The notes beneath the pieces are model-generated. The model saw only the letters and a program-made list of their open reading frames with translations. It was not told the DNA's origin and searched no databases. Positions 17,474 to 53,561 of a stretch of 64,000 bases of DNA are shown here, piece after piece (the first letter of the stretch is position 1; each line of letters starts with the position of its first letter). The translations under genes and the position numbers were made by a program. The stretch comes from Geobacillus icigianus (lineage in GTDB: Bacteria > Bacillota > Bacilli > Bacillales > Anoxybacillaceae): assembly GCF_000750005.1 (NCBI RefSeq), contig NZ_JPYA01000201.1, positions 17,461-81,460 on the forward strand, given 5' to 3'.

Positions 17474-18985
17474 GTGGACAATATGAACCCGAAATCGATC
17501 ATCGTCATTTTCGGAGCGACGGGAGATTTGGCGAAACGGAAGCTGTTTCCGTCTCTTTACCGCCTGTATGAAAAAGGGCATTTGAACGAGCGATTCGCTG
17601 TCGTTGGCGTCGCGCGCCGCCCGTTGTCGGTCGACGAGTTCCGAAACGATGTGCGCGACTCGGTTGAAACAGCGTTTCAGCAACCGCTCGCGGACGAGCG
17701 ATTCATCTCCCATTTCTATTACCACCCGTTCGATGTGACGGAAGCCGAGTCGTACCAACGCTTAAAGTCGCTCCTCGAACAGCTCGATGACACATATGCG
17801 ACCGAAGGCAACCGCATTTTTTACTTGGCGATGGCGCCGGAATTTTTCGGCACCGTCACTTCCCGCTTGCAGTCGGAAGGATTGACGGAAACGCGCGGCT
17901 TTAAACGGCTCGTCATCGAAAAACCGTTCGGGCATGACTTGGCGAGCGCCGAAAAGCTGAATGATGAGATTCGCCGCGTCTTTTCCGAACGGGAAATTTA
18001 CCGGATCGACCATTACCTCGGCAAAGAAATGGTGCAAAACATCGAGGTCATCCGCTTCTCGAACGCCATTTTCGAGCCGCTCTGGAACAACCGGTTCATC
18101 GCCAACATTCAAATTACATCGAGCGAAACGCTCGGCGTGGAAGATCGCGGCCGCTACTACGACCATTCCGGGGCGCTGCGCGACATGGTGCAAAACCATA
18201 TGCTGCAAATGGTCGCGCTTTTGGCGATGGAGCCGCCGATCAAATTAACGACCGATGACATCCGCCACGAAAAAGTGAAAGTGTTGCGCGCCTTGCGCCC
18301 GATTTCCCACGATGACGTCGACCGCTATTTCGTGCGCGGCCAATACGAGCGGGGGATGATCCACGGCAAGGCCGTGCCGGCGTACCGCGAAGAGCCGAAC
18401 GTCGATCCGGACTCAAACACGGAAACGTTTGTCGCCGGGAAGCTCCTGATCGACAACTTCCGCTGGGCCGGGGTGCCGTTTTACATCCGCACCGGCAAGC
18501 GAATGGCGGAAAAGTCAACGAAAATCGTCGTCCAATTCAAAGATGTACCGATGAACTTATACTACCGGACAAACGAAACGATCGCCCCGAACTTGCTCGT
18601 TATTCACATCCAGCCGGATGAAGGAATCACCCTTCACTTAAACGGCAAAAAAACCGGGGAGTCAACGACGACGACCGCCCCGTTTCAACTCGATTACTGC
18701 AACAACTGCATCGACGGCATCAACACGCCGGAAGCGTACGAAAAGCTGCTGTACGACTGCATGCGCGGCGATGCGACGAACTTCACCCACTGGGATGAAG
18801 TGGCGGCGTCATGGCAATTTATCGACCCGATTTCTGACGTGTGGGCCAACACAAAAGCGGCCGATTTCCCGAACTATGAAGCCGGTTCGATGGGGCCGAA
18901 AGCGGCCGATGAACTACTGCAAAAAGACGGCTTCCATTGGTGGCCGATCAGCCACCCGCGTTCCGAAAAGGCGGGGGCAAACTAG
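17474..18985 (+). CDS. zwf: Glucose-6-phosphate 1-dehydrogenase
   Basis: First step of the oxidative pentose phosphate pathway, making NADPH and 6-phosphogluconolactone. It has 503 residues. The NADP-binding motif FGATGDLAKRK is near 13-23 and the substrate and catalytic motif RIDHYLGKE near 177. The GTG at 17474 has GAGGT eight bases upstream; an ATG three codons later is the alternative. A tandem 49-bp repeat lies immediately upstream and could affect expression. The partner gndA is 12 kb downstream on the other strand. Confidence 0.95.
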   Translation: MDNMNPKSIIVIFGATGDLAKRKLFPSLYRLYEKGHLNERFAVVGVARRPLSVDEFRNDVRDSVETAFQQPLADERFISHFYYHPFDVTEAESYQRLKSLLEQLDDTYATEGNRIFYLAMAPEFFGTVTSRLQSEGLTETRGFKRLVIEKPFGHDLASAEKLNDEIRRVFSEREIYRIDHYLGKEMVQNIEVIRFSNAIFEPLWNNRFIANIQITSSETLGVEDRGRYYDHSGALRDMVQNHMLQMVALLAMEPPIKLTTDDIRHEKVKVLRALRPISHDDVDRYFVRGQYERGMIHGKAVPAYREEPNVDPDSNTETFVAGKLLIDNFRWAGVPFYIRTGKRMAEKSTKIVVQFKDVPMNLYYRTNETIAPNLLVIHIQPDEGITLHLNGKKTGESTTTTAPFQLDYCNNCIDGINTPEAYEKLLYDCMRGDATNFTHWDEVAASWQFIDPISDVWANTKAADFPNYEAGSMGPKAADELLQKDGFHWWPISHPRSEKAGAN

Positions 18986-38417: not shown

Positions 38418-39398
38418 TCAACCAAGCGACGGCCACCGCCGTTTTTCCGGTTCATTTTTCGGACGGAACTCGCTTTTAATCAGCAAATATCGCTCCAATT
38501 CGCGCACCAAATGAAACAGCGCCGCCCGCTCCTCAAACTGTTCGCGGGTCGTTGGCAGCGGCATTTCCTTAAATTCCTCGCGCATCGCCGAAAGACGCCG
38601 CAAAAACCGAGCAGCTGTATTTCCCGGGTGAATGGCATCGCTTAGTTCGTCGATAAAATCAGCGATCATCATCCGCTGCTCAACCGTGTACGTCAGCGAC
38701 GTCACCAGCGGAAGCATATGCTCGATGATTTCCAGCTGCCGCTCGCGCATCCGGAAGTAGCGGACGTACTCGTCTTCGTTCCGCCATAGCTGGTTGTCGG
38801 CGTGGCGCATCGCGAGCGTTTTCGCCCGCTCAAGCATCTCCGCGGCAAGCGGCAGCTCCTTCCCGTCCCAATCGAGCTCATTCGTGCGCAAATAGCGCAC
38901 GATTTCTTTTAAAATGATGCGAAACAAATCCTCGACAATGTGCTGGTACTCTTTGAGCTGCTTCTCGGCGCTCGGCATGTACATGTTGACGATGAGCGCC
39001 ACCCCGATGCCGACAGCGACCAGCAGCAGCTCATTGACGACCCATTCCCATGTGATCTCCTTGGCCGCATACAAATGCAAAATGATCACCGAACTGGTCG
39101 CAATGCCTTCGTTGACTTTCAGCCGAACCGTCACCGGAATAAACACTAACAGCAGCAGCCCGATCGTCCACGGATGGTAGCCGAAGACGGCAAAAAACAA
39201 CGCCGCAAACCCGATCGCGACAACACACGCCGCCAAACGGGCCCGCGCGGTCTCCAGCGACCGCTTTTTCGTCACTTGAACGCACAAAATGACGATAATG
39301 CCGGCAGAAGCGAAGTTGTGAAGGCCGACCAACTGAGCGATGGCGATCGCCAGCGCCGTACCGACCGCCGTTTTCAACGTCCGATAGCCGATTTTCAT
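38418..39398 (-). CDS. yqjA: YqjA-like membrane protein, aromatic acid exporter family
   Basis: A 326-residue protein with about five or six N-terminal membrane helices (residues 10-150: TALAIAIAQLVGL, AGIIVILCVQV, FAALFFAVFGY, IGLLLLVFIPV, LLLVAVGIGVALIV) and a long helical cytoplasmic C-terminal domain of about 170 residues. This is the ArAE / DUF939 layout of B. subtilis YqjA. AAAGGAG is nine bases before ATG 39398. It is the last core gene before the defence island; substrate unknown. Confidence 0.82.
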   Translation of the reverse strand: MKIGYRTLKTAVGTALAIAIAQLVGLHNFASAGIIVILCVQVTKKRSLETARARLAACVVAIGFAALFFAVFGYHPWTIGLLLLVFIPVTVRLKVNEGIATSSVIILHLYAAKEITWEWVVNELLLVAVGIGVALIVNMYMPSAEKQLKEYQHIVEDLFRIILKEIVRYLRTNELDWDGKELPLAAEMLERAKTLAMRHADNQLWRNEDEYVRYFRMRERQLEIIEHMLPLVTSLTYTVEQRMMIADFIDELSDAIHPGNTAARFLRRLSAMREEFKEMPLPTTREQFEERAALFHLVRELERYLLIKSEFRPKNEPEKRRWPSLG

Positions 39399-39540
39399 CG
39401 CGCGTCTCCTTTGCCAATGGTTGCCGACTTCATTGTACCGATGACGGCGCTTTCGATGCAAGATGACATTGCGTGAGTTGAGTATATCCTAAATAAATCC
39501 ATTCCTCTTTTTGAGCGGCTAGCATTGATTCTAACCATCC

Positions 39541-42500
39541 TCAAACGAGCAACTGTTGTTTGCGTTCTACAACATTTAAATATACATTGGGCAAATCATG
39601 CAAAACTTCATAAGCCGAAACATACGCAATAGCAGGATGGCTGTATGCGCATACCAACATCCTTTCTATATTATTTTTTGCGCCAATTAAGCGATTCCCT
39701 TTCGATTTGACTTTAATGAGATATTGTCCTCCTTCTTCGAATTCCTCGAATTTTTCATTGTGTATTTCTAACATGCGCTTAATAGGGGCTAACACTTTTT
39801 GTTGTTCCGTTAATGTTAATGCCTTCAATTCACCTTTAACGATATAATCAAGCAACTCTAAGGCGACAAAACGATTTAACTGATGATGATAAAATTGATT
39901 GGAGTAATGTCTTAAGCATTTATAGCAAGATGTCTCGCAATGGTTTTCGCATTCATGCAAAATTTCCCTTGCCATTTTAATAATATCAGGGAGCATTTCC
40001 CCTGCAATGTGTGAATACCCAGCTCCCCCGGATAAAGTATCAAACAGATAAACATCGGCTTGATACAGATGTTGTGGACTTTTTGTTTCTAATGGAAGAA
40101 TGCGATATCCTGACAGCAATTCATTATAATCGATGTCCAATACCCGGCTTGCAGCCAATACGAGCGCCTCGCCAATCGTCTTCAAACCGTCATGAACCCA
40201 TTGATGATTCGGGTGAAAATCGACTTTTTCATCAAAACTCATCCGCAATAGTAATAAATCAGAGTTAAATATATTTCCAAGAAACACTTTCATAATACTT
40301 CCTCTACAGCGGCTATCCCTTTGACCAAGATGTGTTTTCAACCTGTAAGGTACATCATGGGCCAATTTATGTTCACTCTCCCCTGCTGGCCAAATAGCCC
40401 CACAGTCCGTGCAGATTTCGAATCCTTCCTGTCGATCCGTCCCCTTATTCATGACGATAAGCTGTTTGTTCATCTCATTAGCATATTGAAGCCGTTCTGA
40501 ACCTGAATAAGCCTTCAAACTTAGTTTTTCGCCAGACACAGGAATAGGTAACTGAGGAGGAACTGCATAGGTGAATTCCTGTTCCCTATCTCCTTCCTTC
40601 ACCTCCATCCCTTTCTCAGGCGAAAACCCCGTTGGTCGCAACAATGGACTGTTTTTCAACTCACCACCACACACTGAACATTTTTTTGTTTGGATTGGAT
40701 CTAAAGAAACAAATAAGCACGATTCACAATAGGTGATAACCGGCAAACTGTCAAGCAACAAATCTTTAGCCGGTTTTAACGGATCGTGTGGATTAGGTAC
40801 ATAAATTCCCCCTATTCGATATGTTTTCTTATCAACAACAATTTGTCTTCCTGGCGCATACTCGCTCAACGCTCTGTTTATCTCCAATTGCGGTCGTTGT
40901 TTAACGATTATTCTCCCCGTTCTTTCATCCTTTCCTTCAATGTAAAAACTGCATAAATCTTGTGGAAATGCATAGGTTGGAAGCAAGCCGTGATTGAACA
41001 AAAAATCGAGAAATTTATCGTTCGGATTTACTTCCGCTATATCGTCACCATCGATGGGTTGTATTGTATGTTTGACTTTCTCATAATTCCGTTCCAACTC
41101 GCTTACTAGCTCATTACATGCTTCCTTAACAATATACCATTTTCGCTCTACCATATCCCCCCCTAATATTCCTTCTGTCGAAACAACCTCATCCGGAATC
41201 AAGTCAAAAATCACCGGGTAGTCGCGAAAACGACAGGCTATATTGTCATTCAGCCATTTTTTAAACTGCTCATAATTAAAAGGCGGAGTACCTTCAAAAA
41301 ATGATTTTGTATCACCTAACGAACTGCTGAGAATGCTTGACGCAACGGCACTTGTAGAAACGTTTTCATGAAAATACGTTTGAATGAGAAATGCGTTCAA
41401 ATGCCTTTTGGTGATTTTTTTATTATCAATATAAACAATGGGTTTGCGAGCCGAACCGCTGATCATTTTTTCAGGCTGTTGAAAATAATAATAATCGTGC
41501 GGCCCTCCCTGGGCATAAGTAACTACGGTCGATAAAGCCGTTCCCCTCCGTCCAGCACGTCCCGCACGCTGCTGGTAGTTCTCCCGTTGTGGCGGAACAT
41601 TTCGTAGTCCAACGGCAGTCAGTGAACCGATGTCGACGCCGACTTCCATTGTGGTTGTACAGCTTAAAATATCGACAGGTCCTTCCAAAACATCTAATAT
41701 GATATCTTGGAACCGCAATTCGTACTCTTCTGTTGTTGCGATCGCTATTTTCGCATCCTTTTGCGACAGTTGAGCGGTATGCTCTTCAACGGTGATGTTC
41801 GAAATTTTCTCATGGTTTGTCAATATTTTTTGTATAGGTGAACGCCAAAATCCTTTTTCTGAATCCAACCGTTTACTGTTCACGTTTAATATCTCGATAT
41901 TTTCCGATAAACAATTCACACATTTGTTTTTTGCTGCAACGATATTCATTTCTTTGCAATCATTGCATTTATACCAAGTTGTATAAATGCCGGGAATCAG
42001 TTTTAATTTTCTAGGAGATAAATAATATCTCCCTTCCGACTCTGTACACAATTTAAACAATGCATCGACAATTTCCTTCTTATGCTCCTCACTTTGAACA
42101 TAAAGATGAATGATATTCTCTAAGTTTTTCGGTATATAACCTTTCTCAACTCCCCAATCATCGCCCCCGAACCCTCTAATCTTCAGCCTCTCATAGAAAT
42201 GAATGGTTGAATCTATGGCCACTCTATCCAGCATTTCTTGAATGAACAGCATAGTCAGTACATAAATGTCTTCCTTCGACAATATCTCTTTTAGCTTTCT
42301 TTCTACTCTTGCCATTTCTCTTTTAACAGGCTCTACGTAGCCTGTGGCCGTTGTATAAACCGAGTAGAGTGGATGGCAAAGCTGGCGAAGAAGTTCTGTT
42401 TTGAAACGAGGCAGCAGTTCAATGTCGCCGTTTTCAATCAGCTCCTCATAGTCGCCATCAAAATCCTCGTGTAAAATTTGAACATGATAGGCCAACGATT

Positions 42501-44901
42501 TTCGATCCTGTCCTTCAAAAAAGTATAATTTATGCTCATCAATCACTTGCAACAACGAACAATATAAAGCGCCGCTCAGTTTCGGTTCAATATCTTGATC
42601 AATTAATTTTTGAGCCGCCAATAAAATGGACTGTCTAAAAGAGTCGAGCTCTACTTCATGGGGAATATCCCTAGCAAGACGTGCAGCCTTTTGGCGTCCG
42701 TCAGAAAACAGTAGCACTTTCCGTCCCTCATTAGGCAATTGTTTATTCAGCTTTACAGGAGGTTGCAATAAAAATTGCTCGCGAACTAAATTAGCAAAAG
42801 GCTGCTCACCTTTTGTTTTTAAGTCCGTAATCGTTCCCTGCACTTTTCTCATACAGCACGGACATTGTTGGAATGTAATTGTTTGCTTTTTCTTTTTGTT
42901 CTTATTTGTCTCATCATGAGGCAAATACAATTTTAGATAACCTTCAGGATCTTCCGGCGGCGACTTCATTAAATATCCCGTCCTGATATCGAGCCATACA
43001 GGACGCACCGATCGTTCTCCTTTTTGTATTTTTTCATAGGGCGGTTCAACCAGCAAGTGAATCTCTGTCAACTCCTCGCCAACAATGCCTTTCCCTTTTT
43101 CAGCCCATAAATAGTTGCCGTCCTTTTTCGATATATACCCTCGAATAAACGCAGTTCCACATTTTCGATGGGTAAGCAATTCGTAGACCCTTGCTTCCTT
43201 GCTGCAAGTACATTGTAATTTCGGAGAATCATACATTTTTCCTAAAATCGAATTGTTTCCTTTTACTCTTTTTTCCTCACATTTCGGATTGGTGCAAACA
43301 TAAATGCCTGATACACCTTTAAAGAATAAATGGATCCTTACCGGCAATAACACTCGCTCTTTATCCTTCGCTGCATTGGCCAACATTAATAAATGGCTCG
43401 TCGCTTTTTGGGCCGTTTTCATATCGACACTTGGAAATACCAACTTGGCAATATCGCTGAACTTTTTAGCATTTCCGCTTATTTGTTCAATAATTAATTC
43501 GAGCGGTCCAAAACCGTCTAAACTTTTATATAGATACGACGGCAGCTCATCTAAATTATGTGGGACATCTCCCCATCCAAGCCGCTTTGCTACAGCCTCG
43601 AGATTCGACCGCAATGTATCGTACTGATGAATGCGATTGGTAAACTGCTCGCTGTCTAGCAAGGCGAATGCATAGGCCTCTTCTGTCGTGCCAATTCTTC
43701 CGGGCTTTCTTTTTTCTTTCACTCCTTTGATCAACTTAAACGAACGTTTTTTCAGTTTACCCGTTAATTGTTCAGCAAATTCAATAGCCGCCGAATCATC
43801 ATCCTCCGCGCCCAAACTTGCACTCGTTAGAATGCAGCGCAATCGATCGCGTGTAATTCCTAATCTTGCCTGCAGCCTTCTAATGAGTAGAGCCACCTCT
43901 GCACCGCTCGTTCCCCGGTACATATGCGCCTCATCAAGTACTAGAATCAATGTGTTCGCTTCATCTTCTGCGAGCCATTGTCTTGTTTTCTCCCAAATTG
44001 GCCGCTCAATCGGGCGCATCAACATATACTCCAGCATGGAATAGTTCGTTACCAAAATATCCGGGGGAATCGTTTGCATCTCGTGTCTAGTAAACAATTC
44101 CCGGTCATCAGGAGAGGTCAAATATCGAGATTTCCAGTCGCCTCTTTTGCCTGAACAGAAGTTTGTTAAATTTTTCGCTATCCATTTTCCTCTTTTTTTC
44201 ATTTCCAGCGCTAGCTGTGGCCGATTCTTTTCAATATCCAAATAATAGTCAATAATCTCCTTCAACTGGTAGTCGTCTTTTTCCTTTGTCCGCTCTCCCG
44301 GGTAAGGTGTTCTTGATGTGTACATACCGAATAATGGATGACGACCAAAATGATCTCGAAAGTACTTGGACACTCTCTCATCACCAAAAAGCTGGCGCAA
44401 TCTTGTGATTTGATCGCTGACTAGCGCATTCATCGGATAAAGTATTAACGCCCGAACCGCATGTGTTTGAAACTGCTCCCTTCTATTAAATCCTTCATCA
44501 ATTAATGAGTTTAAAATGGGATGTAAGAATGATTCCGTTTTACCTGAGCCGGTTCCAGTCGCTACAACTAAATCATGTCCGTCCACTAAAAATGATTCAA
44601 GCGCCTCCTGCTGATGGACGTACGGCCTCTTATAAATTCCTACACTAGGAAATAACTCCGAAAAATAAGTCATTGCTTCTTTGCAATGAGCAGGCAAATT
44701 CATCTGCTCGTAGGTAGGCCCCAGCTCATAAACAGGAGTGGCCTCAATATACGGCTCCTTCGAAATAACCCCTGGTGAATCCAATAACTCTCTACGCTCT
44801 AACAGCAAAGAGGGATGACTGATTGGATATTGCGCTTCAATATATTCGCGCAATTTTTGATGCAGCCGCGCAGAAACAGAGTTAATGGTAAATTCCATCA
44901 T
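39541..44901 (-). CDS. DruE-like DEAH helicase with DUF1998-type C-terminus
   Basis: A 1786-residue superfamily 2 helicase. Q-like RPYVHQQEA at 92-100, Walker A ATGTGSGKT at 114-122, motif Ia LYPMNALVSDQ, Walker B VLDEAH at 321-326, motif III TSAS at 359-362. A long insert follows with cysteine clusters near 530-590 and 975-1005, then motif V/VI (MEVGVDIGSLTAVGLRNV, QQRAGRAGRRG) near 1095-1125. The C-terminus has another zinc cluster (CESC...CSVC, near 1390) and an MrfA-like end, DTLSGGAGYS (near 1620) and CENHCETSCYKCLRHYSNQ (near 1650). Size and order match Druantia DruE better than DISARM DrmA, which is shorter with DUF1998 on a separate protein. Its start overlaps the previous stop (ATGA). 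AT-richer than core genes. Confidence 0.85.
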   Translation of the reverse strand: MMEFTINSVSARLHQKLREYIEAQYPISHPSLLLERRELLDSPGVISKEPYIEATPVYELGPTYEQMNLPAHCKEAMTYFSELFPSVGIYKRPYVHQQEALESFLVDGHDLVVATGTGSGKTESFLHPILNSLIDEGFNRREQFQTHAVRALILYPMNALVSDQITRLRQLFGDERVSKYFRDHFGRHPLFGMYTSRTPYPGERTKEKDDYQLKEIIDYYLDIEKNRPQLALEMKKRGKWIAKNLTNFCSGKRGDWKSRYLTSPDDRELFTRHEMQTIPPDILVTNYSMLEYMLMRPIERPIWEKTRQWLAEDEANTLILVLDEAHMYRGTSGAEVALLIRRLQARLGITRDRLRCILTSASLGAEDDDSAAIEFAEQLTGKLKKRSFKLIKGVKEKRKPGRIGTTEEAYAFALLDSEQFTNRIHQYDTLRSNLEAVAKRLGWGDVPHNLDELPSYLYKSLDGFGPLELIIEQISGNAKKFSDIAKLVFPSVDMKTAQKATSHLLMLANAAKDKERVLLPVRIHLFFKGVSGIYVCTNPKCEEKRVKGNNSILGKMYDSPKLQCTCSKEARVYELLTHRKCGTAFIRGYISKKDGNYLWAEKGKGIVGEELTEIHLLVEPPYEKIQKGERSVRPVWLDIRTGYLMKSPPEDPEGYLKLYLPHDETNKNKKKKQTITFQQCPCCMRKVQGTITDLKTKGEQPFANLVREQFLLQPPVKLNKQLPNEGRKVLLFSDGRQKAARLARDIPHEVELDSFRQSILLAAQKLIDQDIEPKLSGALYCSLLQVIDEHKLYFFEGQDRKSLAYHVQILHEDFDGDYEELIENGDIELLPRFKTELLRQLCHPLYSVYTTATGYVEPVKREMARVERKLKEILSKEDIYVLTMLFIQEMLDRVAIDSTIHFYERLKIRGFGGDDWGVEKGYIPKNLENIIHLYVQSEEHKKEIVDALFKLCTESEGRYYLSPRKLKLIPGIYTTWYKCNDCKEMNIVAAKNKCVNCLSENIEILNVNSKRLDSEKGFWRSPIQKILTNHEKISNITVEEHTAQLSQKDAKIAIATTEEYELRFQDIILDVLEGPVDILSCTTTMEVGVDIGSLTAVGLRNVPPQRENYQQRAGRAGRRGTALSTVVTYAQGGPHDYYYFQQPEKMISGSARKPIVYIDNKKITKRHLNAFLIQTYFHENVSTSAVASSILSSSLGDTKSFFEGTPPFNYEQFKKWLNDNIACRFRDYPVIFDLIPDEVVSTEGILGGDMVERKWYIVKEACNELVSELERNYEKVKHTIQPIDGDDIAEVNPNDKFLDFLFNHGLLPTYAFPQDLCSFYIEGKDERTGRIIVKQRPQLEINRALSEYAPGRQIVVDKKTYRIGGIYVPNPHDPLKPAKDLLLDSLPVITYCESCLFVSLDPIQTKKCSVCGGELKNSPLLRPTGFSPEKGMEVKEGDREQEFTYAVPPQLPIPVSGEKLSLKAYSGSERLQYANEMNKQLIVMNKGTDRQEGFEICTDCGAIWPAGESEHKLAHDVPYRLKTHLGQRDSRCRGSIMKVFLGNIFNSDLLLLRMSFDEKVDFHPNHQWVHDGLKTIGEALVLAASRVLDIDYNELLSGYRILPLETKSPQHLYQADVYLFDTLSGGAGYSHIAGEMLPDIIKMAREILHECENHCETSCYKCLRHYSNQFYHHQLNRFVALELLDYIVKGELKALTLTEQQKVLAPIKRMLEIHNEKFEEFEEGGQYLIKVKSKGNRLIGAKNNIERMLVCAYSHPAIAYVSAYEVLHDLPNVYLNVVERKQQLLV

Positions 44902-45851
44902 TCCATTTCAACTCCTTCCCATCGTATTGAATCCTCACCAATCCCCAAACGCCGCAAAATCCAAATAAAATCTGAATAATGCCACAAAGGCACAATCCAC
45001 TCAACCAGTTTGATAAAAGAAAGGGGAAAACAAAAAAGCATCGCCATCTTCTGTTCAAACATAGGAAGCTTTTTGAAAAGGCGGACATAAATAACATCCT
45101 CACGAATTTTTGCACACTTTATCGTTGTTTTCACCTGAGCCTTATACTCTAAGGCATACTTGGCCGTTTCTAAATAATATTCGGGTATCTTGTAATAACG
45201 CGCATCCCCCCTCCCCATGTTCTCAACCCAAAAGTAGAGCGGTTGACTGTTTTTTAATGCATACCTAGCAATATAACAATCAGACTTTGATACAAGATTC
45301 ATTTGAAATGGGTGCCATTTGCGCCGTTTTTGAGGCAAAAATAGTTCTGTTGGTTCATCGCTTAGTTTTACTGGGTTCTGCAATTTGAGCGTTTCGATAA
45401 ATTCATTTACAGTCGGGGAAGGCATCCATTCGTCAATCATCAACGTTGGAACATGACTCCCCTCTTCCATATAGCCGTTGCCGCATCCGTAATATTTGTC
45501 GCTCTTTCCTTCAGGGTTGCTAAGCACAACCAAGCTTTTAGACACGGGAAGTTCGACACAGCGCGGGGGCAACGGCAAATAATATCCATTGGCAAGCTTC
45601 AATATTTCCCCTAAACCAGATAACAATTCGAGCAATGACTGTGCTTCGGTTTGACCTTCTTCTTTCATAACGTTTCGAAGATCTTCAAAAAAACATCCCT
45701 TTATCAATCTTTGCAAAGGCGGGATAAGCCGCTGAAAATGCACCGCGTTCATTTTATAGTCCTCGAACGCATAAAAGTGCACCAAAGAAAGGGCATGACG
45801 TTTTATCTGTCTAAACTGTATAATTGTATCCCTCCATGCATCTGTCAACAT
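44898..45851 (-). CDS. Unrecognised protein of the DruE-like operon, 317 residues
   Basis: Soluble, mixed alpha/beta protein; no known motif or metal cluster was seen. The N-terminal 90 residues look helical (WRDTIIQFRQIKRHALSLVH); the middle has aromatic-rich strands (KYYGCGNGYMEEG, RRKWHPFQMN) and the end has IVPLWHYSDFIWILRRLGI. AAGGGGGGAG is eight bases before the ATG. Its stop overlaps the helicase start and it follows the 660-residue gene by 19 bases, so it is an obligate operon member. Position equals that of DruD in type I Druantia, but homology is not shown. Confidence 0.7.
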   Translation of the reverse strand: MLTDAWRDTIIQFRQIKRHALSLVHFYAFEDYKMNAVHFQRLIPPLQRLIKGCFFEDLRNVMKEEGQTEAQSLLELLSGLGEILKLANGYYLPLPPRCVELPVSKSLVVLSNPEGKSDKYYGCGNGYMEEGSHVPTLMIDEWMPSPTVNEFIETLKLQNPVKLSDEPTELFLPQKRRKWHPFQMNLVSKSDCYIARYALKNSQPLYFWVENMGRGDARYYKIPEYYLETAKYALEYKAQVKTTIKCAKIREDVIYVRLFKKLPMFEQKMAMLFCFPLSFIKLVEWIVPLWHYSDFIWILRRLGIGEDSIRWEGVEME

Positions 45852-45870
45852 CTCCCGAGCTCCCCCCTTA

Positions 45871-47853
45871 CTAAATCAAAATATTTTCGCTGTCAAACTC
45901 TTCTAAGATCTTTTTTGCGTGCTCACGAGCAATGTACGGCTCCAGTAGCACCTTGGTGACCCATACAGACACAGCTTCTTCCTCGAGCCGTTCATCCTCT
46001 AATAACCGAAACCATTTTTTAAATGCTTCTTTTTGTTTCGTAAACGACATGACTTCTTGCACAATTTCCACAAAATTATTGAACTCACTGGACTTTTCTT
46101 TTAATATCTTAGCTTCTACAAGTAAAGGTACAGGGATGGACCCAAAGACTAAACGGTGCGTCCTTCTTAGTAACCGAATATCAGGAGTTGTTATCATTTC
46201 ATTTGCGCTAATCACAGGCGAAAACGATAGCTTTTGAATGAACGAATCGGTCAACTCACTTTCTTCTTTTATGCTTATCAAAATCAATTCTGGCAACGAC
46301 TCATCAATAGACACGCGCCAATGGTCGAGAAACGATTGTAAATACAATTCAGCAGGCGAATTTTCAATTTGGCATAAATGAAGAGACTTTACACAATCAG
46401 GCCGTGTATAATGAGAAAAGCAATTGATCAACGTTTTATTAGTAAAATTCTTTATATCTGGAAAAACCGTTAGATGATCATTTCCTGAAACCGCCCAGCC
46501 GATTGCCTGTGACAGTTCAAAACTAAATTCTCCTTTGACCACGACTGGTTTACGAAACAAAATCGCTCCGATGATCGTTTTCGCTGTCAACCATGCTTTA
46601 TTCTCCTGCATGCCAATCATGCATAGGTTTTCTGCAATGGATGCCATTAAATGATTTATATCTTCATAATAAACTGTTGTTTCATCAACATCCTTCACCA
46701 CCCATTGCGAATGATTTCGATCGTCTGATTCATTATGCACAGAGATATTTAAGCCTAAATTCGTAAAAGGTAGTAAATCAACCAAAGTATGGAAAATATT
46801 ATCTTTCATTTCCTTAATCTTTAATTCCAATGCCTTATCGGCTTTTTTTAGTCTTTCTTCCCTTTCTTTTATCTGTCTTTCGATTTCTTCCATCTCAACG
46901 AGCAAATACTCTTTTTTTCTACGCAACTGTTCTGTTTCGTTCAATACTTTTCGATGCTCATCTTCGATTCTTGCTTTCTCCGCAGCAAGCCTTTCTTCTA
47001 ATTTATCCTCTATTTCCCTTTGAATCACTGGGTACTGTAATAATTCTTCTTCAAATTGACCAATATCTTCCTTTGTTATTTGATATTTATCCAACAACTC
47101 AACGGCTCGCATAATGCGCTCATAACGAACTTGGGGAGGGAGATCGCTAACCAATTCGGATAGCTGGCTGATGACTTTTCGTGAAATTTCCTGAACCTGT
47201 TGCTGATCTTTCAACGTTTTTAAAGCATAACGCATAATCCGATCGTTAGTGGCACAATCGAGATAATCTTCGACAGGACTCGCTAGCATCGCCGATACAA
47301 AGTATCGCTCGATCCCGACGTTCTTATCATTATATTTAACGAGATGCATCCCTTTTTTTCGTATTTCGAGCAACTTATCGTCGGACGAATCAATCACCCA
47401 TTTTTGTTCTTTTGTCTGTTTGACACGATAAGGTCCAACTAAATAATCATCGTTCGTTAAGAGTAAAATTTCTGAACTAAACTGCTGCGGGGCATCAACC
47501 CCGTTCTGAATCAAATAAACAATGTCATGATTTTGCGCAAGTGAAAACGGTATCGGAAATACCTCGTAATATTTCAAATTCTCCAATTCCTTTTTTACGA
47601 TAAACTTTGAATATACAAGTCTTCCCGCGTAGTCTTCCTCATTTCTTTCTTCGATTGTATAAAATCCCACTTTCCCTGCGTGAATGTCTTCAGGAGCAGG
47701 AGACCATATCACTTCCCCCTCACTTGGATAATGCAATCGTGCTTCCTGAACCTCAATTAACTGGTGATCGCGATATTCCGCTAAAACTTTAACAAACACA
47801 TATTTTTTATTTGGCTTTCTTTCTTTTTCGACAATCCCAAATATCGTCTTCAC
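45871..47853 (-). CDS. Coiled-coil protein of the DruE-like operon, 660 residues
   Basis: N-terminal region (1-200) of beta-rich character, a long charged coiled coil at about 280-350 (EEIERQIKEREERLKKADKA), and a C-terminal domain (about 400-600) that looks like a P-loop ATPase of the McrB kind whose Walker A site is degraded: the place of GxxGxGK(S/T) reads VVVKGEFSFELSQAI, and PELILISIKEE resembles a Walker B strand without the acidic pair. This fold guess is weak. The start is GTG at 47853, overlapping the previous stop (GTGA), with GGGGGGAG upstream. Possible counterpart of DruC. Confidence 0.7.
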   Translation of the reverse strand: MKTIFGIVEKERKPNKKYVFVKVLAEYRDHQLIEVQEARLHYPSEGEVIWSPAPEDIHAGKVGFYTIEERNEEDYAGRLVYSKFIVKKELENLKYYEVFPIPFSLAQNHDIVYLIQNGVDAPQQFSSEILLLTNDDYLVGPYRVKQTKEQKWVIDSSDDKLLEIRKKGMHLVKYNDKNVGIERYFVSAMLASPVEDYLDCATNDRIMRYALKTLKDQQQVQEISRKVISQLSELVSDLPPQVRYERIMRAVELLDKYQITKEDIGQFEEELLQYPVIQREIEDKLEERLAAEKARIEDEHRKVLNETEQLRRKKEYLLVEMEEIERQIKEREERLKKADKALELKIKEMKDNIFHTLVDLLPFTNLGLNISVHNESDDRNHSQWVVKDVDETTVYYEDINHLMASIAENLCMIGMQENKAWLTAKTIIGAILFRKPVVVKGEFSFELSQAIGWAVSGNDHLTVFPDIKNFTNKTLINCFSHYTRPDCVKSLHLCQIENSPAELYLQSFLDHWRVSIDESLPELILISIKEESELTDSFIQKLSFSPVISANEMITTPDIRLLRRTHRLVFGSIPVPLLVEAKILKEKSSEFNNFVEIVQEVMSFTKQKEAFKKWFRLLEDERLEEEAVSVWVTKVLLEPYIAREHAKKILEEFDSENILI

Positions 47854-49370
47854 GACGATCTCCCCCCATCAATAAATTCCTTTACTATTTTTGGAACCTT
47901 GTTTCGATACGTCTTTACATAGTAGGCTAGTTTTGCCCGCAATATTTTATCTCCTACATTTTGCAACCAAAACTCTAGGAAACGATATTGTTCATTTGAA
48001 ATCCAACAACACTTTGTTTGCTCAAGCTGCATATACGCCAATAAAACTTTGCGCCAATCGGGATGGGCTAAATCGCACATCTCTTGAGCAGAAAAGTCAA
48101 ACGCCCAAACCCCAGGAATAAAAAGCTTCTCAACAGATGGATGAAAAAACTCTCCCCCTTGACTGAGCTCTCTGGCAAACCGATTTTTTTCTTTGATCCA
48201 GTAAGGAAACAAAAGAGGATCTGTTACTGAAACCGTTGTATATTTCAAAATGCTCTTTTCCTCACACAGCGCCAATGTCCGCTGGTCAACCACAACCCCG
48301 GATTCCAATCGTTCCGAAAAACATGGGTTCGCGTTTGGATCATAAAATAGATATAACATCTTTCCTTCATGTTTTTTAATGTAAAAAGTATGAAAGCCCT
48401 TTTTATGCAATATAATGTCAACATAAGAACTCGACAGCGGATATTCCCGACTCGTATAATCCGGTTGAATATGAACTAGGCTGTACTTTTGCAGTTGAAA
48501 GTCACGAAAAGATATTTGGATTCTACATTTTCCTGTTCCGATTAACATCGCTTCGCCTTTTCTTCCAAAAACTGAAGGATCGACTATATCCAAATAATAA
48601 TACGGCGGTTTCAAGTCATATCCAAATTTCCGAAACCACTCTATTAACGGCTCCGCCAATAGAAAAGGAAGACGGATTTTATAGGCAAACCATCCATACT
48701 TTTGATTTAATGGTGTTACATCCATTTCCCTCGGAAACTCTATTTTTTTCCGTGACATCATATAAAACGTGTCACTCAGTGATAGTTCTCTAGGCTCAAT
48801 CATGCAAAAGCTTTGGTTTATTGGCCGAAACAAATATGTATGGTTTTGAAACCCTTTAATATATTCAGGCCAAAACAAGCGGAGTTTCTCATAACATTCT
48901 TCATCTTTTCTAGTCGCAAAAGAAAAACTGTAGCTCTGCTTTGGAACAATCCACAGTTTATTTTCACTAGAGTTAGGCCAAAGCTGTGCAGAGGAAATAA
49001 AGGAATTCATTTCATTGCATTTTATTTTAAAGTGCAAATGATGCACGTCACATTGCATCACTTGAGAAGGCGTTAAATAAGGAAAGGTAATAAAAAGCTC
49101 CCAATCACGTTCCAATGGTTCAAATGTAATAAAGGGGCGGCTTATCATCACTGAATAATCATGAAGATGAGATGAACCTGACAAACGTTGAACATAAAGT
49201 TCGCATCGTTCAGACCCTTGCCCGCGTTCGTGACGAAAGTGAGCGGACTGCACCCTTCCTTCTGCTTTAAATACTCTCGCGCCGCAGCATGGACACGTAT
49301 AGACAACCCCATACTTATGTGCGTTTTTCGCATGAACAAGTTGTCCTAACGGGTTAAATGCTCTTTCCAT
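47850..49370 (-). CDS. Protein with CoiA-like N-terminal zinc finger, 506 residues
   Basis: First gene of the four-gene operon. Residues 1-60 read like the start of competence protein CoiA: YTCPCCGARVFKAEGRVQSA then HFRHERG, a CxxC pair and a HFxH pair that could bind zinc, followed by another Cys (RCELY). The remaining 440 residues are unrecognised, rich in aromatic residues and beta strand; a CoiA nuclease core (PD-(D/E)XK) was not identified. AAGGGG stands ten bases before the ATG. Nucleic-acid recognition is a reasonable inference. Confidence 0.7.
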   Translation of the reverse strand: MERAFNPLGQLVHAKNAHKYGVVYTCPCCGARVFKAEGRVQSAHFRHERGQGSERCELYVQRLSGSSHLHDYSVMISRPFITFEPLERDWELFITFPYLTPSQVMQCDVHHLHFKIKCNEMNSFISSAQLWPNSSENKLWIVPKQSYSFSFATRKDEECYEKLRLFWPEYIKGFQNHTYLFRPINQSFCMIEPRELSLSDTFYMMSRKKIEFPREMDVTPLNQKYGWFAYKIRLPFLLAEPLIEWFRKFGYDLKPPYYYLDIVDPSVFGRKGEAMLIGTGKCRIQISFRDFQLQKYSLVHIQPDYTSREYPLSSSYVDIILHKKGFHTFYIKKHEGKMLYLFYDPNANPCFSERLESGVVVDQRTLALCEEKSILKYTTVSVTDPLLFPYWIKEKNRFARELSQGGEFFHPSVEKLFIPGVWAFDFSAQEMCDLAHPDWRKVLLAYMQLEQTKCCWISNEQYRFLEFWLQNVGDKILRAKLAYYVKTYRNKVPKIVKEFIDGGRSS

Positions 49371-49477
49371 ATGAACAGAACCCCTTACAAAAATGACTGG
49401 ATGTTGTTTTATATCTTGACCACTTCAATAAACTATTGCTAATGCGACAAAACGATGAATTTCGCGGGGAGAGACAG

Positions 49478-49505
49478 CATATTCTCCATAACTGTCTCTC
49501 CTCAA
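49478..49505. terminator. Hairpin between the hsdR remnant and the operon
   Basis: GGAGAGACAG and CTGTCTCTCC with an 18-base loop region. No clear T run, so it may be structural only. Confidence 0.4.
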
Positions 49506-49521
49506 AGCACCGATTGATCCC

Positions 49522-50200
49522 TTACATATTCATGCACTGCAGCTTCGCCTGCTCAAGCACATCTTCCACCGCTTTCGGCTGTTTATTTGGCGGATAAATC
49601 ATACTTGCGCAGCACCTTCTTAATTTCAAGGCGCATGCACGCTTGGGCTTGCGCTTTTTTATCCCAATCGTGCGTCCGGTTTTCCTTTACCGTTTTCGCC
49701 AAATCCTTTGCGAGTTGAATTACTTCATCTTCCAAAATCGCTTCTTCCAACATTTTCGCGATTCGTTCATTCACTTCTTTTAAGTCAGGTGTGCCTGTTC
49801 GCGAAGATTTCATAATAAAGGAACGAACAGCGATAAAATAGGAAATTTCCTCTTTTTGTTCTTTCGAAAGCAAGCCGGTGCAAATTTTATAAACATCTTT
49901 CAGCTTTTTCGTTTCCGTCATAAACAGCAATTTTCTTTTTTCCGTTTGCTACACAAATTCTGCTCCTTCACGAATGACTTCATAACGCTTTTTGTCGCTA
50001 TCACCGAAAAAGGCGCGATAATCAAACGAATGGAACATATTGCGCAACACTTCGAGGATGTTTAACGCGATGTCGCGGGCTTGGGTGTTTTCTTGCACTT
50101 TATCTTGGTCGCGCTTCGTATGCGTTTGCAACGCTTCTATTAAATTTTTCTTTAAGCTGATGTAATCAACAATCTTGGCCAACATTCCTTTTCTTAAAGG
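49522..50200 (-). pseudogene. hsdR remnant (type I restriction enzyme, C-terminal part)
   Basis: Only the last 220 or so residues of a type I restriction endonuclease R subunit remain: MLAKIVDYISLKKNLIEAL... through EEISYFIAVRSFIMK to KKVLRKYD. Two lesions are visible: an in-frame TAG at 49949-49951 and a one-base insertion near 49592, after which the true ending (YPPNKQPKAVEDVLEQAKLQ) continues in another frame to the stop at 49522. The ATPase and nuclease domains are missing; the left break coincides with a repeat palindrome at 50201. Non-functional. Confidence 0.85.
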
Positions 50201-50346
50201 GGTTCTAGAAGGCCGGTGATTTAGTGCAAAACACTACTGATTCCATCCTTTTCTCAATTAAAGAAACCTTGCAGAATCAGCTTTCTTTTCTGAATGAAAA
50301 TACCGCCGATTAGTGTGTGACAGCGGTTTTTCACCGCCCCTCTAGA
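50201..50346. repeat. Dispersed repeat, locus 6 (one unit, reverse)
   Basis: Nearly identical to the third unit at 59590-59718: TAGAAGGCCGGTGATTT, CTGATTCCATCC, TTCTCAATTAAAGAAACC, GCAGAATCAGCTTTC and GACAGCGGTTTTTCACC. It joins the hsdR fragment exactly at its palindrome and replaces the rest of that gene. Confidence 0.85.
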
Positions 50347-50397
50347 GTCCATTTTACCATAAAAATCTTTGCCATTAAGGAACTAATTTCCTATAGC

Positions 50398-50455
50398 CCC
50401 GCTCTCCCTGTCATCCAACCTATCGGCAGGCGACAACAGGGAGAGCGGCGTTTTG
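50398..50455 (-). terminator. Hairpin after the methyltransferase gene
   Basis: CCCGCTCTCCCTGT pairs with ACAGGGAGAGCGGCG across about 25 bases, just past the methyltransferase stop codon. Probable terminator with a weak T run. Confidence 0.5.
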
Positions 50456-50459
50456 AGTT

Positions 50460-52364
50460 TTACGATTGCATCAGTGTAAACGTCGAACGAATTCCCATTT
50501 TTTCGTACAGTTTTAAACTCGATTCAAGCCGTTGCTTCTCGAGTTGTTTCATCATGTCTTGAATGTGTTTTTGTTCTTCGAGATATGACATGATGATTTC
50601 CTTCTGCTCTTCGAACGAACGCATCGGAATCGGAATGTTCTCCAAATCTTTCATATTCAAAATCGTAACATTTGTCCCTGCCTGTTTGCTCAAAAGAAGA
50701 TATTGCCCAACAGGGCTTTCCAAGAATATCTTTAAGTAAAATGGGTCGACATGGCGGTGCGGACGAATGCCGATAAAGTTATGGGAAATCAGTATATCTC
50801 CCTCATGCGGCGGGATGACCGCTATTTTGATCCCCGCTCCCCGAACCGATATAATAACATCGCCTTCTTGGACAAGATATGATTCAATTTTGGCATTGTT
50901 TGTAATTTCATAAGACGCGAGTTGATCGATCAACACCTCCCCATTTTGGACGTCAGATAACTTAATCACTTTATATGGCCCATTCTCTGTTTCTGCGTCT
51001 TTGGCTGAGATATTGATGCCGCGGTAGAAAGTGCCGATCCGTTTCAATGGTTGTACGCATGGCAAATTCTTTATGTGATCATGGTAAAACTTCACTTTTC
51101 CGTACGGCTCGATCGTCCATTCACTGCTTTGCAAATAGCGGTTGCTTAAAAGGTTCGCTTCTTCAATCTCCTGGACAGATACGAATTTGCTTACTTCATC
51201 CATCTCCAGCCCCTCATGATATATGGCGACAATCCGGTCGATATCTTCTTGGCGCAAATATTTTCTGCCTCTTCTCCGTTCACCATAATAATTTTCCGCG
51301 TTAATGAATAAAATGTTTCCTTCCCTCTCTGCACTTTTATTTTTATTCAGCACAAGAAGGTTGATCTGAATGGCTGCACCATGAAACAAAGATGATGGCA
51401 GAGCGATTATGGACTCAATCATATCGGCGGCCAATAAATGCTCCCTGATCACCTCCTCTGGCCCTCGTCTAAACAGCGTTCCGTTTGTGACGACAAGAAC
51501 TGCTTTTCCGTTTTCCTTCAACGAAGAGAGAGCGTGCAAAATGAAAGCCATGTCAGCGCTCGTTCGCGGCAATCGGCCGTATACAAACCGATCATAACGG
51601 TCATTCATCAGTTGTTCATAGTTGTTTATTCTCATACCGAACGGAAAATTCATCATAATGTAATCAAACTTTTTCAACTTGTTTCCCTCTACAAATGCAG
51701 GCTCAGTAAGCGTATCTCCTTTGACCAAACGAGCATCGGTCCGGTCGTGAAATAACAGACGCAGTTTTCCAAGCGCCCATGCTCGCTGATTGATTTCCTG
51801 ACCGTACAGCGCCACTTCGCAATGATGTCGCCGTGCATATTCGCTTGCTGCACACAACGTGCCGGACAGCCCTGAAGCACCATCATAAAACTCCCCTCCT
51901 TCCATACTTAAAAGGCGAATGCCTAGCTCATTAACACCAGCCGGCGTGATCAGCTCTACACCTTCAACCCCGGCCATATTGCCTGCGTACACAAACAACG
52001 ATTCAATCCATTGTTTCCACTGCTCTTTCGTGAATGCAAAAGAATGAATCCGCGACAACAAATGATATAATGTATTGTTACTTAATCGGTCAAACAAGTC
52101 GGAAAACTCATATACTCCCTTTAGGAAAGGGACATGTGCTTCTATTTCGTTTAAAACTGCCTTTACCTTCTCCGCCAAAAAAGCTCCTTCTTTTAAAATC
52201 GCCCCTAAAGAGAGTTCGTCTGGAAGGCTGTAACGCTCCTTATCCAGTTCTAAAAATTTCACGCTTGCAATCGACGCGATCGTCTGCACAGAATCGATTA
52301 CGCTTATATTCGCCTCGCTGCGCAACTGATTCATGAAATGAGATAATTCTCTTTCACACACCAT
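50460..52364 (-). CDS. Type I-like N6-adenine methyltransferase fused to a target-recognition domain
   Basis: A 634-residue M-S fusion. Residues about 1-170 form the helical N-terminal part; motif I is YDGASGLSGTL (near 165), and the catalytic motif is NFPFG (near 245) in place of NPPF. From about residue 430 to 620 a single HsdS-like target-recognition domain follows (IGTFYRGINISAKD, GDVIISVRGA, IPIPMRSFEEQKEII) with a coiled-coil end. It methylates adenine in a site set by that one domain. No separate S gene and only a dead hsdR remain, so it is now an orphan methylase or works with the neighbouring operon. GAGGTGAC precedes the ATG. Confidence 0.85.
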   Translation of the reverse strand: MVCERELSHFMNQLRSEANISVIDSVQTIASIASVKFLELDKERYSLPDELSLGAILKEGAFLAEKVKAVLNEIEAHVPFLKGVYEFSDLFDRLSNNTLYHLLSRIHSFAFTKEQWKQWIESLFVYAGNMAGVEGVELITPAGVNELGIRLLSMEGGEFYDGASGLSGTLCAASEYARRHHCEVALYGQEINQRAWALGKLRLLFHDRTDARLVKGDTLTEPAFVEGNKLKKFDYIMMNFPFGMRINNYEQLMNDRYDRFVYGRLPRTSADMAFILHALSSLKENGKAVLVVTNGTLFRRGPEEVIREHLLAADMIESIIALPSSLFHGAAIQINLLVLNKNKSAEREGNILFINAENYYGERRRGRKYLRQEDIDRIVAIYHEGLEMDEVSKFVSVQEIEEANLLSNRYLQSSEWTIEPYGKVKFYHDHIKNLPCVQPLKRIGTFYRGINISAKDAETENGPYKVIKLSDVQNGEVLIDQLASYEITNNAKIESYLVQEGDVIISVRGAGIKIAVIPPHEGDILISHNFIGIRPHRHVDPFYLKIFLESPVGQYLLLSKQAGTNVTILNMKDLENIPIPMRSFEEQKEIIMSYLEEQKHIQDMMKQLEKQRLESSLKLYEKMGIRSTFTLMQS

Positions 52365-52391
52365 TTAAAAGTCACCTCATTATTTTCCTTT

Positions 52392-52495
52392 AGTAATAAA
52401 ATTACTTACTTTAAGTATCGACCAAAAAACTTTCTATCTGCATTATAATGCCAATAATAATAAAAAGTCAACAATAAGTTAGTAATTGAGTTACT
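52392..52495 (-). promoter_or_regulatory. Consensus promoter of the methyltransferase gene flanked by two matching palindromes
   Basis: On the minus strand, TTGACT (52466-52471) and TATAAT (52442-52447) with an 18-base spacer. Two 15-bp near-palindromes bracket it: AGTAATTGAGTTACT at 52481-52495 upstream and AGTAATAAAATTACT at 52392-52406 downstream. The symmetric placement 74 bases outer-edge to -10 suggests operator sites for a repressor, perhaps by looping. No regulator gene is adjacent. Confidence 0.7.
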
Positions 52496-52614
52496 TTTTT
52501 GTTCTCTTGTCCAAAGAGTGGCAATTGCACCTTTTTAACATAGTGCGCGCCCATCCTACAGCCGCCGGACACAAAAAAACAGCCGCCCACTCATGCAAGG
52601 CAAGCCGCCTAGGC

Positions 52615-52912
52615 TCACGACGGAGATTTCTCATCAATCGTTTTCCCATCGCGCTCGATTTCGCGCCCGACCGCTTCGTTCAGCGCGGCGAAAACAGCGC
52701 GGGGCATGAGTAAACGCCGACAATGTCGTCAATCTCCTCGTTGATTTTCCCCTTTTGTTTGCCGGTATAATCAATGCACAAATCAATGGCGGAGTTGCGG
52801 CGGCCGTGCCGCGCGCCCGCGAGCCGAACAAAACGGCTTTTTGAATGTCCTCTTCACCGGCGAAATACGCCATCAGCCGTTCAAACACGGTCGGGCTCAT
52901 TCCATCGGTCAC
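52615..52912 (-). pseudogene. Decayed MNT-type nucleotidyltransferase
   Basis: Starts like a minimal nucleotidyltransferase: MSPTVFERLMAYF, then the signature VLFGSRARGTA. After this a frameshift moves the catalytic Asp pair (SAIDLCID) and continuation (INEEIDDIVGVYS) to another frame, and the ending (LNEAVGREIERDGKTIDEK) to a third. Such proteins pair with HEPN toxins as antitoxins or AMPylators; no HEPN gene is present. Non-functional remnant at the edge of the island. Confidence 0.75.
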
Positions 52913-53079
52913 GGTCGATCATTTCTTTATATAAAGATGGATCGTTTATTGCTCATTCCGTTCTATCCCTTTAAAACTACGGTTCTCTTCTTCCTATCGC
53001 ATCATTGACTCTAACGAAAAACAATCGGTATAGATGCTGTAGTTTGGTCCCCTGATGGAGAAGATCCAATTAATCGCGC

Positions 53080-53122
53080 AAAAAGACCCGGAGTTTGACC
53101 TTTTCGTCCCCCGGGTCTTTCT
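53080..53122 (-). terminator. Terminator of the mutAB-meaB-brxB unit
   Basis: Leftward, AAAGACCCGG pairs with CCGGGTCTTT and is followed by a T run. The gap 52913-53079 holds no gene. Confidence 0.85.
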
Positions 53123-53123
53123 T

Positions 53124-53561
53124 TCACACTTCCTCACAATATTCGTCAAACAGCGCTTGCAGCTTTTGCACGACCGCCACCGGTTCGTGCCCTTCGATGT
53201 CGTGGCGGTGGAGCATGGCGCACAATTTCCCGTCTTTTAGCAGAGCGAACGACGGCGAGGACGGCGGCTCGCCGACAAAATACTCGCGCGCGCGGGCTGT
53301 TGCTTCTTTGTCTTGGCCGGCAAAGACGGTCACTAAATGATCGGGAAGCTTGTCGTAGTGGACGGCGTGGGCCGCTGCGGGACGGGCGATGCCACCGGCG
53401 CAGCCGCACACGGAGTTGATGAGGACAAGCGTTGTGCCTGGACGGCGAAACGCGGCATCGACGTCTTCCGGCGTGCGCAGCTCTGCAAATCCGGCTTCGA
53501 CCGCTTCGCGCCGCGCTTGTTCGACGATGTCATTATAGAGCGGAAATTGAAATGGGAACAT
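53124..53561 (-). CDS. brxB: Bacilliredoxin (YqiW/BrxB-type, DUF1094)
   Basis: A 145-residue thioredoxin-like protein that removes bacillithiol from oxidised proteins. The CGC active-site motif is in NSVCGCAGG (near residue 53). The C-terminal [12 protein letters not shown] segment is also typical. GGAGG lies seven bases before the ATG. It follows meaB after 32 bases and probably shares its transcript. It marks the core genome at the right side of the defence island. Confidence 0.92.

Follow-up and report, generated by a model that had tools for sequence, protein, structure and literature searches.

An apparent DruA-less form of type I Druantia in Geobacillus icigianus and other Bacilli

Introduction

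Type I Druantia defence systems are described as DruABCDE (PMC13316683, PMC8565338, PMC7251935). Here we compare with them a four-gene operon at positions 39541-49370 of a stretch of Geobacillus icigianus DNA (assembly GCF_000750005.1, contig NZ_JPYA01000201.1, positions 17,461-81,460, forward strand; 64,000 nucleotides, "the window" below). Judged from its sequence and those of its relatives, this operon is very probably a type I system that lacks DruA.

The DruE of type III, a two-gene system of DruH and DruE, is reported to be a helicase-nuclease that cleaves DNA and engages replication intermediates containing single-stranded DNA, and the authors suggest that DruE-like DNA processing is a shared core whose partners set the activation mode (PMC13192584). 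According to Bell et al., the nuclease domain of type III DruE is predicted to be active and type I DruE to carry an inactivated C-terminal Vsr nuclease; insertions in RecA1 (a helix-turn-helix or two small domains) are predicted for type I and II DruE, and types I and II are said to encode inactivated relatives of the GTPase CnuB, the type I gene not being named (PMC12458937). The main text of that paper holds none of the whole words DruA, DruB, DruC or DruD. In the texts examined, we found neither a stated function for DruA nor a description of a DruA-less type I form, and no paper linking Geobacillus with Druantia.

Results

The operon encodes type I DruB, DruC, DruD and DruE

A preliminary description of this DNA, made from its letters alone, had reported four leftward genes ending in a 1786-residue DEAH helicase with zinc clusters and a DUF1998-like C-terminus, and had placed three "unassigned partners" upstream, in the position of DruB-C-D of a DruE-family operon. 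The open reading frames (ORFs) bear out the four genes and their junctions, which are a 4-base overlap (druB/druC), a 19-base gap (druC/druD) and a 4-base overlap (druD/druE):

47850..49370, minus strand: DruB, 506 amino acids (aa), ATG start; PADLOC PDLC00004 DruB1, 1015.9 bits, E=0, residues 1-503
45871..47853, minus strand: DruC, 660 aa, GTG start; PADLOC PDLC00007 DruC1, 1279.1 bits, E=0, residues 1-660
44898..45851, minus strand: DruD, 317 aa, ATG start; PADLOC PDLC00011 DruD1, 617.3 bits, E=1.4e-186, residues 1-316
39541..44901, minus strand: DruE (type I), 1786 aa, ATG start; PADLOC PDLC00013 DruE1, 2264.5 bits, E=0, residues 1-1781

PADLOC, Pfam and NCBIfam matches to these proteins were listed at E values up to 1 (for DruE, the best 25 of 41 PADLOC matches; for the other three, the full PADLOC lists). 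The type I models confirm the position of the three upstream genes and remove the label "unassigned", as the best and nearly full-length matches of the partners are DruB1, DruC1 and DruD1. The best non-type-I DruE model gave the helicase 699.8 bits, as compared to 2264.5 for DruE1. These data indicate that the operon is real and intact, with all four proteins matching type I DruB, DruC, DruD and DruE nearly end to end. Close matches of all four proteins to a known complete system had been named in advance as evidence against a novel operon; the PADLOC search comes near to this, but the matched system is one gene short.

The DruC1 score is close to that of window DruC against itself (1454.7 bits), and the related DruC of the carrier G777 reaches 206 bits with the same model. 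We therefore infer that the PADLOC models for the DruA-less branch were built from sequences close to those of the window, and that the database already files this branch as type I. Models for the Escherichia coli and Pseudomonas putida branch matched more weakly (DruB-PDLC00005, E=4.5e-14; DruD-PDLC00009, E=6.2e-6; DruC-PDLC00006, E=0.0048). The operon shares with the type I systems of these two species the order B-C-D-E and a DruE of ~40% identity; it differs in that druA is found in neither operon nor genome, and in DruB, DruC and DruD, whose identity over the alignment to their E. coli and P. putida counterparts is only 14-20%. The PADLOC DruB, DruC and DruD models were also matched by the proteins of G777, G1158 and G1126, three further carriers introduced below, and the DruE model by the DruE of G777.

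Other systems resemble the operon in the helicase. PADLOC DruE3 of type III scores 555 bits on it, but type III has two genes and none of the three partners matched DruH (PADLOC, E up to 1; presence of a DruH model in the library unconfirmed). DISARM likewise shares a YprA-type helicase core (PADLOC DrmA, 53.5 bits, on that core alone), but the other three operon proteins had no PADLOC match to DISARM. The partners also gave no PADLOC match at E up to 1 to DruM, DruF, DruG or DruL (DruM models are present in the library; DruF, DruG and DruL models are unconfirmed), and DruB, DruC and DruD gave none to ZorA or ZorB of Zorya.

DruE is a YprA-family DEAH helicase with Walker A at residue 116, DEAH at 323 and QRAGRAGR at 1111. 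It has seven CxxC pairs, and Pfam finds in it DEAD, Helicase_C and MZB, the MrfA Zn-binding domain (42.3 bits; cut-off 24.2), which is another name of the DUF1998 region (PMC12458937). DruB begins with a CoiA-like zinc ribbon (C26, C29, H47 and C56) that is invariant in 8/8 and 7/7 aligned sequences; CoiA_N scores 18.2 bits on window DruB, under the cut-off of 26.3, and 34.1 and 34.9 bits on the DruB of E. coli and of G370, a type I locus from another class of Bacillota. The central segment of DruC resembles a coiled coil, with weak PDB profile matches, several of them to coiled coils (E=0.0096 and up). Apart from this segment we made no use of the PDB profile searches with DruB, DruC and DruD, which returned low-grade matches alone (polyubiquitin, E=0.0022; coiled coils; cystatin, E=0.88). 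Pfam and NCBIfam gave these three proteins sub-threshold matches or none. AlphaFold models built from three near-identical sequences each were unusable (mean predicted local distance difference test score 33.7 for DruB and 36.2 for DruD). By eye, no catalytic residue set was recognised in DruC or DruD in alignments of 7 sequences, the number used for each of the three partners. A promoter scan gave no signal (25 sites against 26.9 in shuffles).

DruA is missing from the operon and from the genomes that carry it

The E. coli and P. putida loci read druA-B-C-D-E, and the gap between druA and druB is 21 and 19 bases, respectively. The corresponding bases 5' of druB in the window are the remains of hsdR, a restriction gene. 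We searched for DruA with PF14236, which gave no match in the window's own genome (0/1, genome-wide; controls silent in that run), in any Bacilli carrier genome (0/8, genome-wide; both of the control records searched matched) or in G777 (0/1; 3/3 control records matched). PADLOC PDLC00002 found nothing in 5 carriers and matched 4/4 control records, and PDLC00001 was empty in the same number of carriers (controls silent). PF14236 matched in control records W01, W05 and W06 and in G370 (283 bits); the profile therefore works within Bacillota. A druA lying elsewhere in the genome was considered and rejected, the whole-genome searches with PF14236 and PDLC00002 being empty.

The absence of DruA noted in the preliminary description thus holds in its own genome and in all eight carriers. 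Of the two alternatives offered there, "DruA-less type I variant" fits; "undescribed subtype" stands only in that we found no published description of the DruA-less form. The system appears to be a DruA-less variant of type I and not the full type I described in print. For comparison, druA was present in 64 and druE in 69 of 5426 E. coli genomes (63 with at least 80% of druE), the two genes being tallied separately and not genome by genome.

The four-gene set is conserved across three families of Bacilli

Scans with DruC, in overlapping samples, were made at three ranks. Within the family, 5 of 41 genomes have the operon; within the order, 7 of 397 gave a match, of which 5 were counted as carriers (G777 being new); and within the class, 5 of 398 did so, 4 of them counted (G1158 and G1126 being new). 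The distinct Bacilli carriers number eight (G000, G007, G017, G020, G023, G777, G1126 and G1158) and represent five genera and three families; those outside Anoxybacillaceae (loci L035, L073 and L074) belong to other families. Two scans across Bacillota, of 398 genomes each, gave matches in 4 and 3 genomes and one additional type I locus, G370, which began as a weak DruB match and was retained once its operon turned up. Weak DruB or DruC profile matches in G165, G424, G517, G636, G1050 and G086 are not counted as carriers; these rows were dropped because tblastn with three DruE, two DruB, one DruC and two DruA queries (E up to 1e-4) was empty in the stretches fetched. A contig scan with DruC alone recovered two close relatives only, viral contigs gave no match with DruE or with a DruB alignment, and plasmid tblastn with DruC gave none.

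Conservation of the set in other genomes, a check proposed at the outset, was found: B-C-D-E is kept in all eight Bacilli genomes, seven of them complete and the eighth, G. jurassicus (G017), cut where druE leaves the contig after residue 1380. In 7/7 complete copies druB-C-D-E stand in order, are open to their stop codons and meet at junctions of -20 to +21 bases; the 20-base overlap is that of druD and druE in G007, whose DruD has 318 aa. The ratio of nonsynonymous to synonymous substitution rates (dN/dS, NG86) between the window and G007 was 0.159 for DruB, 0.134 for DruC, 0.095 for DruD (on a G007 sequence ~6 residues shorter than the full protein, as in the alignment) and 0.046 for DruE, rough ratios since dS is high (1.3-2.4). 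Within Geobacillus, where changes are few, it was 0.08-0.36; against G777 dS was saturated. These values point to purifying selection on the operon genes.

DruA-less helicases form one group, and DruA varies in position elsewhere

We built three DruE trees, all midpoint-rooted and all without G. jurassicus, the ORF of which is cut by the contig end. In the tree of 15 rows, the seven DruA-less Bacilli rows lie on one side of one branch with 100/100 support, and the DruA-less state is a single change in 100% of 200 bootstrap trees. Next to them are G370, P. putida and E. coli (91/94, under the level that we starred); further out stand Halobacteria, Nitrosococcus, Leisingera and Paracoccus, all of which have DruA, either in the locus or in the same record (found by PF14236 search in Paracoccus and, ~9 kb from druE, in Natribaculum, and from DUF4338 annotation in Leisingera). 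This tree was made without Meiothermus, Deinococcus, Nostoc and Tolypothrix, which were flagged as long branches or are very distant, and without two of three near-identical Halobacteria rows. The Bacilli group also received 100/100 in the other two trees (7 and 5 Bacilli rows), the former of which left the order of its three inner groups unresolved, while the latter also held rows from Nostoc, Tolypothrix and Deinococcus. All three carry a long-branch warning, which in the 15-row tree applies only where the outer groups meet. Since full support unites the DruA-less helicases in one group, and the closest relatives sampled do have DruA, the simplest reading is that DruA was lost once, on the stem of the Bacilli group.

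The order B-C-D-E is fixed while the position of DruA varies. The gene precedes druB in E. coli and P. putida, follows druE on the same strand in Meiothermus, is divergent in Halobacteria and lies on the opposite strand behind the operon in G370. In Nitrosococcus druA comes first, but another gene stands in place of druB and druC; in N. watsonii (L020, 8034-10901) a 955-aa protein lies between DruA and DruD, with no PADLOC match at E up to 0.01. The G370 locus (L087) resembles the window in its B-C-D-E order and in DruE (43% identical), and differs in its DruA and in a PD-(D/E)XK gene (17549-18724, plus strand) whose overlap with the druE end is 20 bases (PF12705, PDDEXK_1, 60.3 bits; weak PADLOC matches to Cas4 and DruK). 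As a separate observation, haloarchaeal plasmids (L018, 8929-11993; L019; L022) hold a DruE-like helicase with two partners, one of them with a weak DruD-like stretch, together with a long DruA in divergent orientation and an FtsK-like gene, possibly a further Druantia arrangement.

Restriction-modification genes are frequent but not fixed neighbours

The preliminary description had also noted restriction-modification (R-M) debris beside the operon. This debris is real, and its sequence identifies it as a decayed type I R-M operon:

49522..50185, minus strand: decayed hsdR remnant, outside the system; PF11867 T1RH-like_C on 49583-49930 and 49949-50185, end piece by eye
50460..52364, minus strand: HsdM-HsdS fusion, 634 aa, type I R-M remnant; PF02384 203.5 bits, PF01420 35.4 bits

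The last hsdR piece, which runs to 49522, looks by eye like the final part of HsdR from L016, where the gene is intact. The Druantia operon lies ~120-150 bp behind a type I hsdR or its remnant in 5/5 Anoxybacillaceae carriers; hsdR is intact (1003 aa) in L012 and L016 and broken in the window, L015 and L013. In the window the fusion has survived longer than the other R-M genes, and in L016 (501-8331) an HsdM-HsdS fusion is followed by further hsdM, hsdS and hsdR ORFs (hsdM by similarity, the rest by eye).

What does not hold is a constant association with R-M genes, none being recognised in G1158 or G1126 and G777 having an unrelated DNA cytosine methyltransferase. This enzyme lies ~1 kb behind druE, ahead of a restriction-helicase-like protein and others, and scores 192 bits with the best DruM2 model and 293 bits with the best type II methyltransferase model; before druB, G777 has small repeated genes and a 623-aa putative LXG-type secreted protein (by eye). 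G1158 has Gabija genes and parts of Wadjet II next to the operon. G1126 shows one other ORF of at least 120 aa in the 14 kb fetched, S-layer-like by eye, and its contig stops 309 bases past the end of druE. We compared flanking ORFs of at least 35 aa by blastp (E up to 1e-3) over up to 3.5 kb on each side of the operon, the flank behind druE being shorter than this in G777, G1158 and G1126 and absent in G. jurassicus. No flanking ORF was common to the Anoxybacillaceae group, G777, G1158 and G1126; therefore nothing that might replace DruA in cis was found.

Discussion

We favour, with a probability of about 0.7, the explanation that the operon is type I Druantia reduced to the core DruB-DruC-DruD-DruE without DruA, together with a mechanism whose individual steps are tentative, at even odds or slightly below. 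DruE, the only part of the operon with a known activity class, would be the motor, a YprA-type helicase that, by analogy with type III DruE, would load on single-stranded stretches of phage replication intermediates. DruB with its zinc ribbon, DruC with its coiled coil and DruD may form a partner assembly that senses phage or gates DruE. Because no conserved catalytic set was seen in the three partners and the type I Vsr domain is predicted to be inactive, we propose that DruE acts without a nuclease, by unwinding or stalling phage DNA, or else passes DNA to host nucleases such as AddAB. For DruA we suggest an accessory role, broadening or adjusting the response, and a single loss on the stem leading to the Bacilli group. 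That several groups of bacilli keep the four-gene form intact suggests that DruA is an optional add-on rather than part of the core machine. The bolder idea of a self-sufficient subtype, with neither DruA nor a nuclease of its own, in which a gated helicase blocks phage replication by unwinding or stalling and DruA is a detachable module, is possible and rather doubtful.

Could the operon instead be a degenerate, incomplete type I system that lost druA recently, for instance when the R-M operon arrived, and is now non-functional or decaying? It does lack druA, has a decaying hsdR in its place and falls short of the DruABCDE described in PMC13316683. However, every complete Bacilli copy has four uninterrupted genes that end in stop codons, and the dN/dS values of 0.046-0.159 between the window and G007 largely refute decay; the DruA-less state, moreover, spans three families as one deep group, and the adjoining hsdR is decayed in three of five loci. 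We consider this explanation improbable. The constancy of hsdR or its remnant just before the operon in the five Anoxybacillaceae carriers, and in G777 the cytosine methyltransferase behind DruE with a restriction-helicase-like protein further on, would fit a neighbour (the HsdM-HsdS methyltransferase or another R-M part) having taken the place of DruA in a hybrid, methylation-guarded Druantia. Yet decay has struck the R-M genes and spared B-C-D-E, G1158 has parts of Gabija and Wadjet instead and G1126 an S-layer-like ORF, and the lineages have no ORF in common in the flanks compared, so that such a hybrid seems very unlikely. Least likely of all would be a distinct, undescribed defence system sharing with Druantia only a DruE-like helicase: the low identity of DruB, DruC and DruD to the E. 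coli and P. putida proteins points that way, but each protein has a nearly full-length match in its own PADLOC type I model and a weaker one in that of the E. coli and P. putida branch, the zinc ribbon shows no variation and the genes stand in the same order.

Several points weigh against the DruA-less core that we favour. DruE relatives outside the Bacilli group in Nostoc, Tolypothrix and Deinococcus also come without annotated DruA (in the fetched stretch); because of these distant rows, and because the trees are rooted only at their midpoint, DruA may have been gained and lost repeatedly across the wider family. A replacement for DruA may lie elsewhere in the genome, or a DruA may be too divergent for PF14236. 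A DruA-containing type I locus in Bacilli with divergent DruB and DruC could have been missed, since the carriers were found with DruC queries from DruA-less loci. Phage protection by B-C-D-E alone is a prediction from sequence. The step without a nuclease draws on 7-sequence alignments and a published prediction; neither the DruB nor the DruD model from AlphaFold was usable. The PD-(D/E)XK gene overlapping druE in G370 means that a nuclease gene does occur in some type I loci.

A natural lineage that has long done without DruA would separate core from accessory and so offer a comparative and experimental handle on the role of DruA. For annotation, a tool that requires DruA would miss or misname such systems.

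Insertion site in Geobacillus

The operon and its R-M neighbours lie between two genes that mark the flanks of an insertion site (39461-53124):

38418..39461, minus strand: aromatic acid exporter family gene, one flank; PF06081, PF11728
53124..53561, minus strand: bacilliredoxin gene, other flank; PF06491 / TIGR04191

Nine Druantia-free Geobacillus genomes were fetched for comparison, a tenth (G018, a short contig) being outside it. The distance between exporter and bacilliredoxin is 13.7 kb in the window and 0.55-2.8 kb in seven of the nine. The other two are G029 (L078), with no bacilliredoxin in the 18 kb fetched, and G026 (L083), where the interval holds 12.4 kb of different content, including two proteins without a PADLOC match. 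The exporter-bacilliredoxin interval is thus a recurrent insertion site in Geobacillus.

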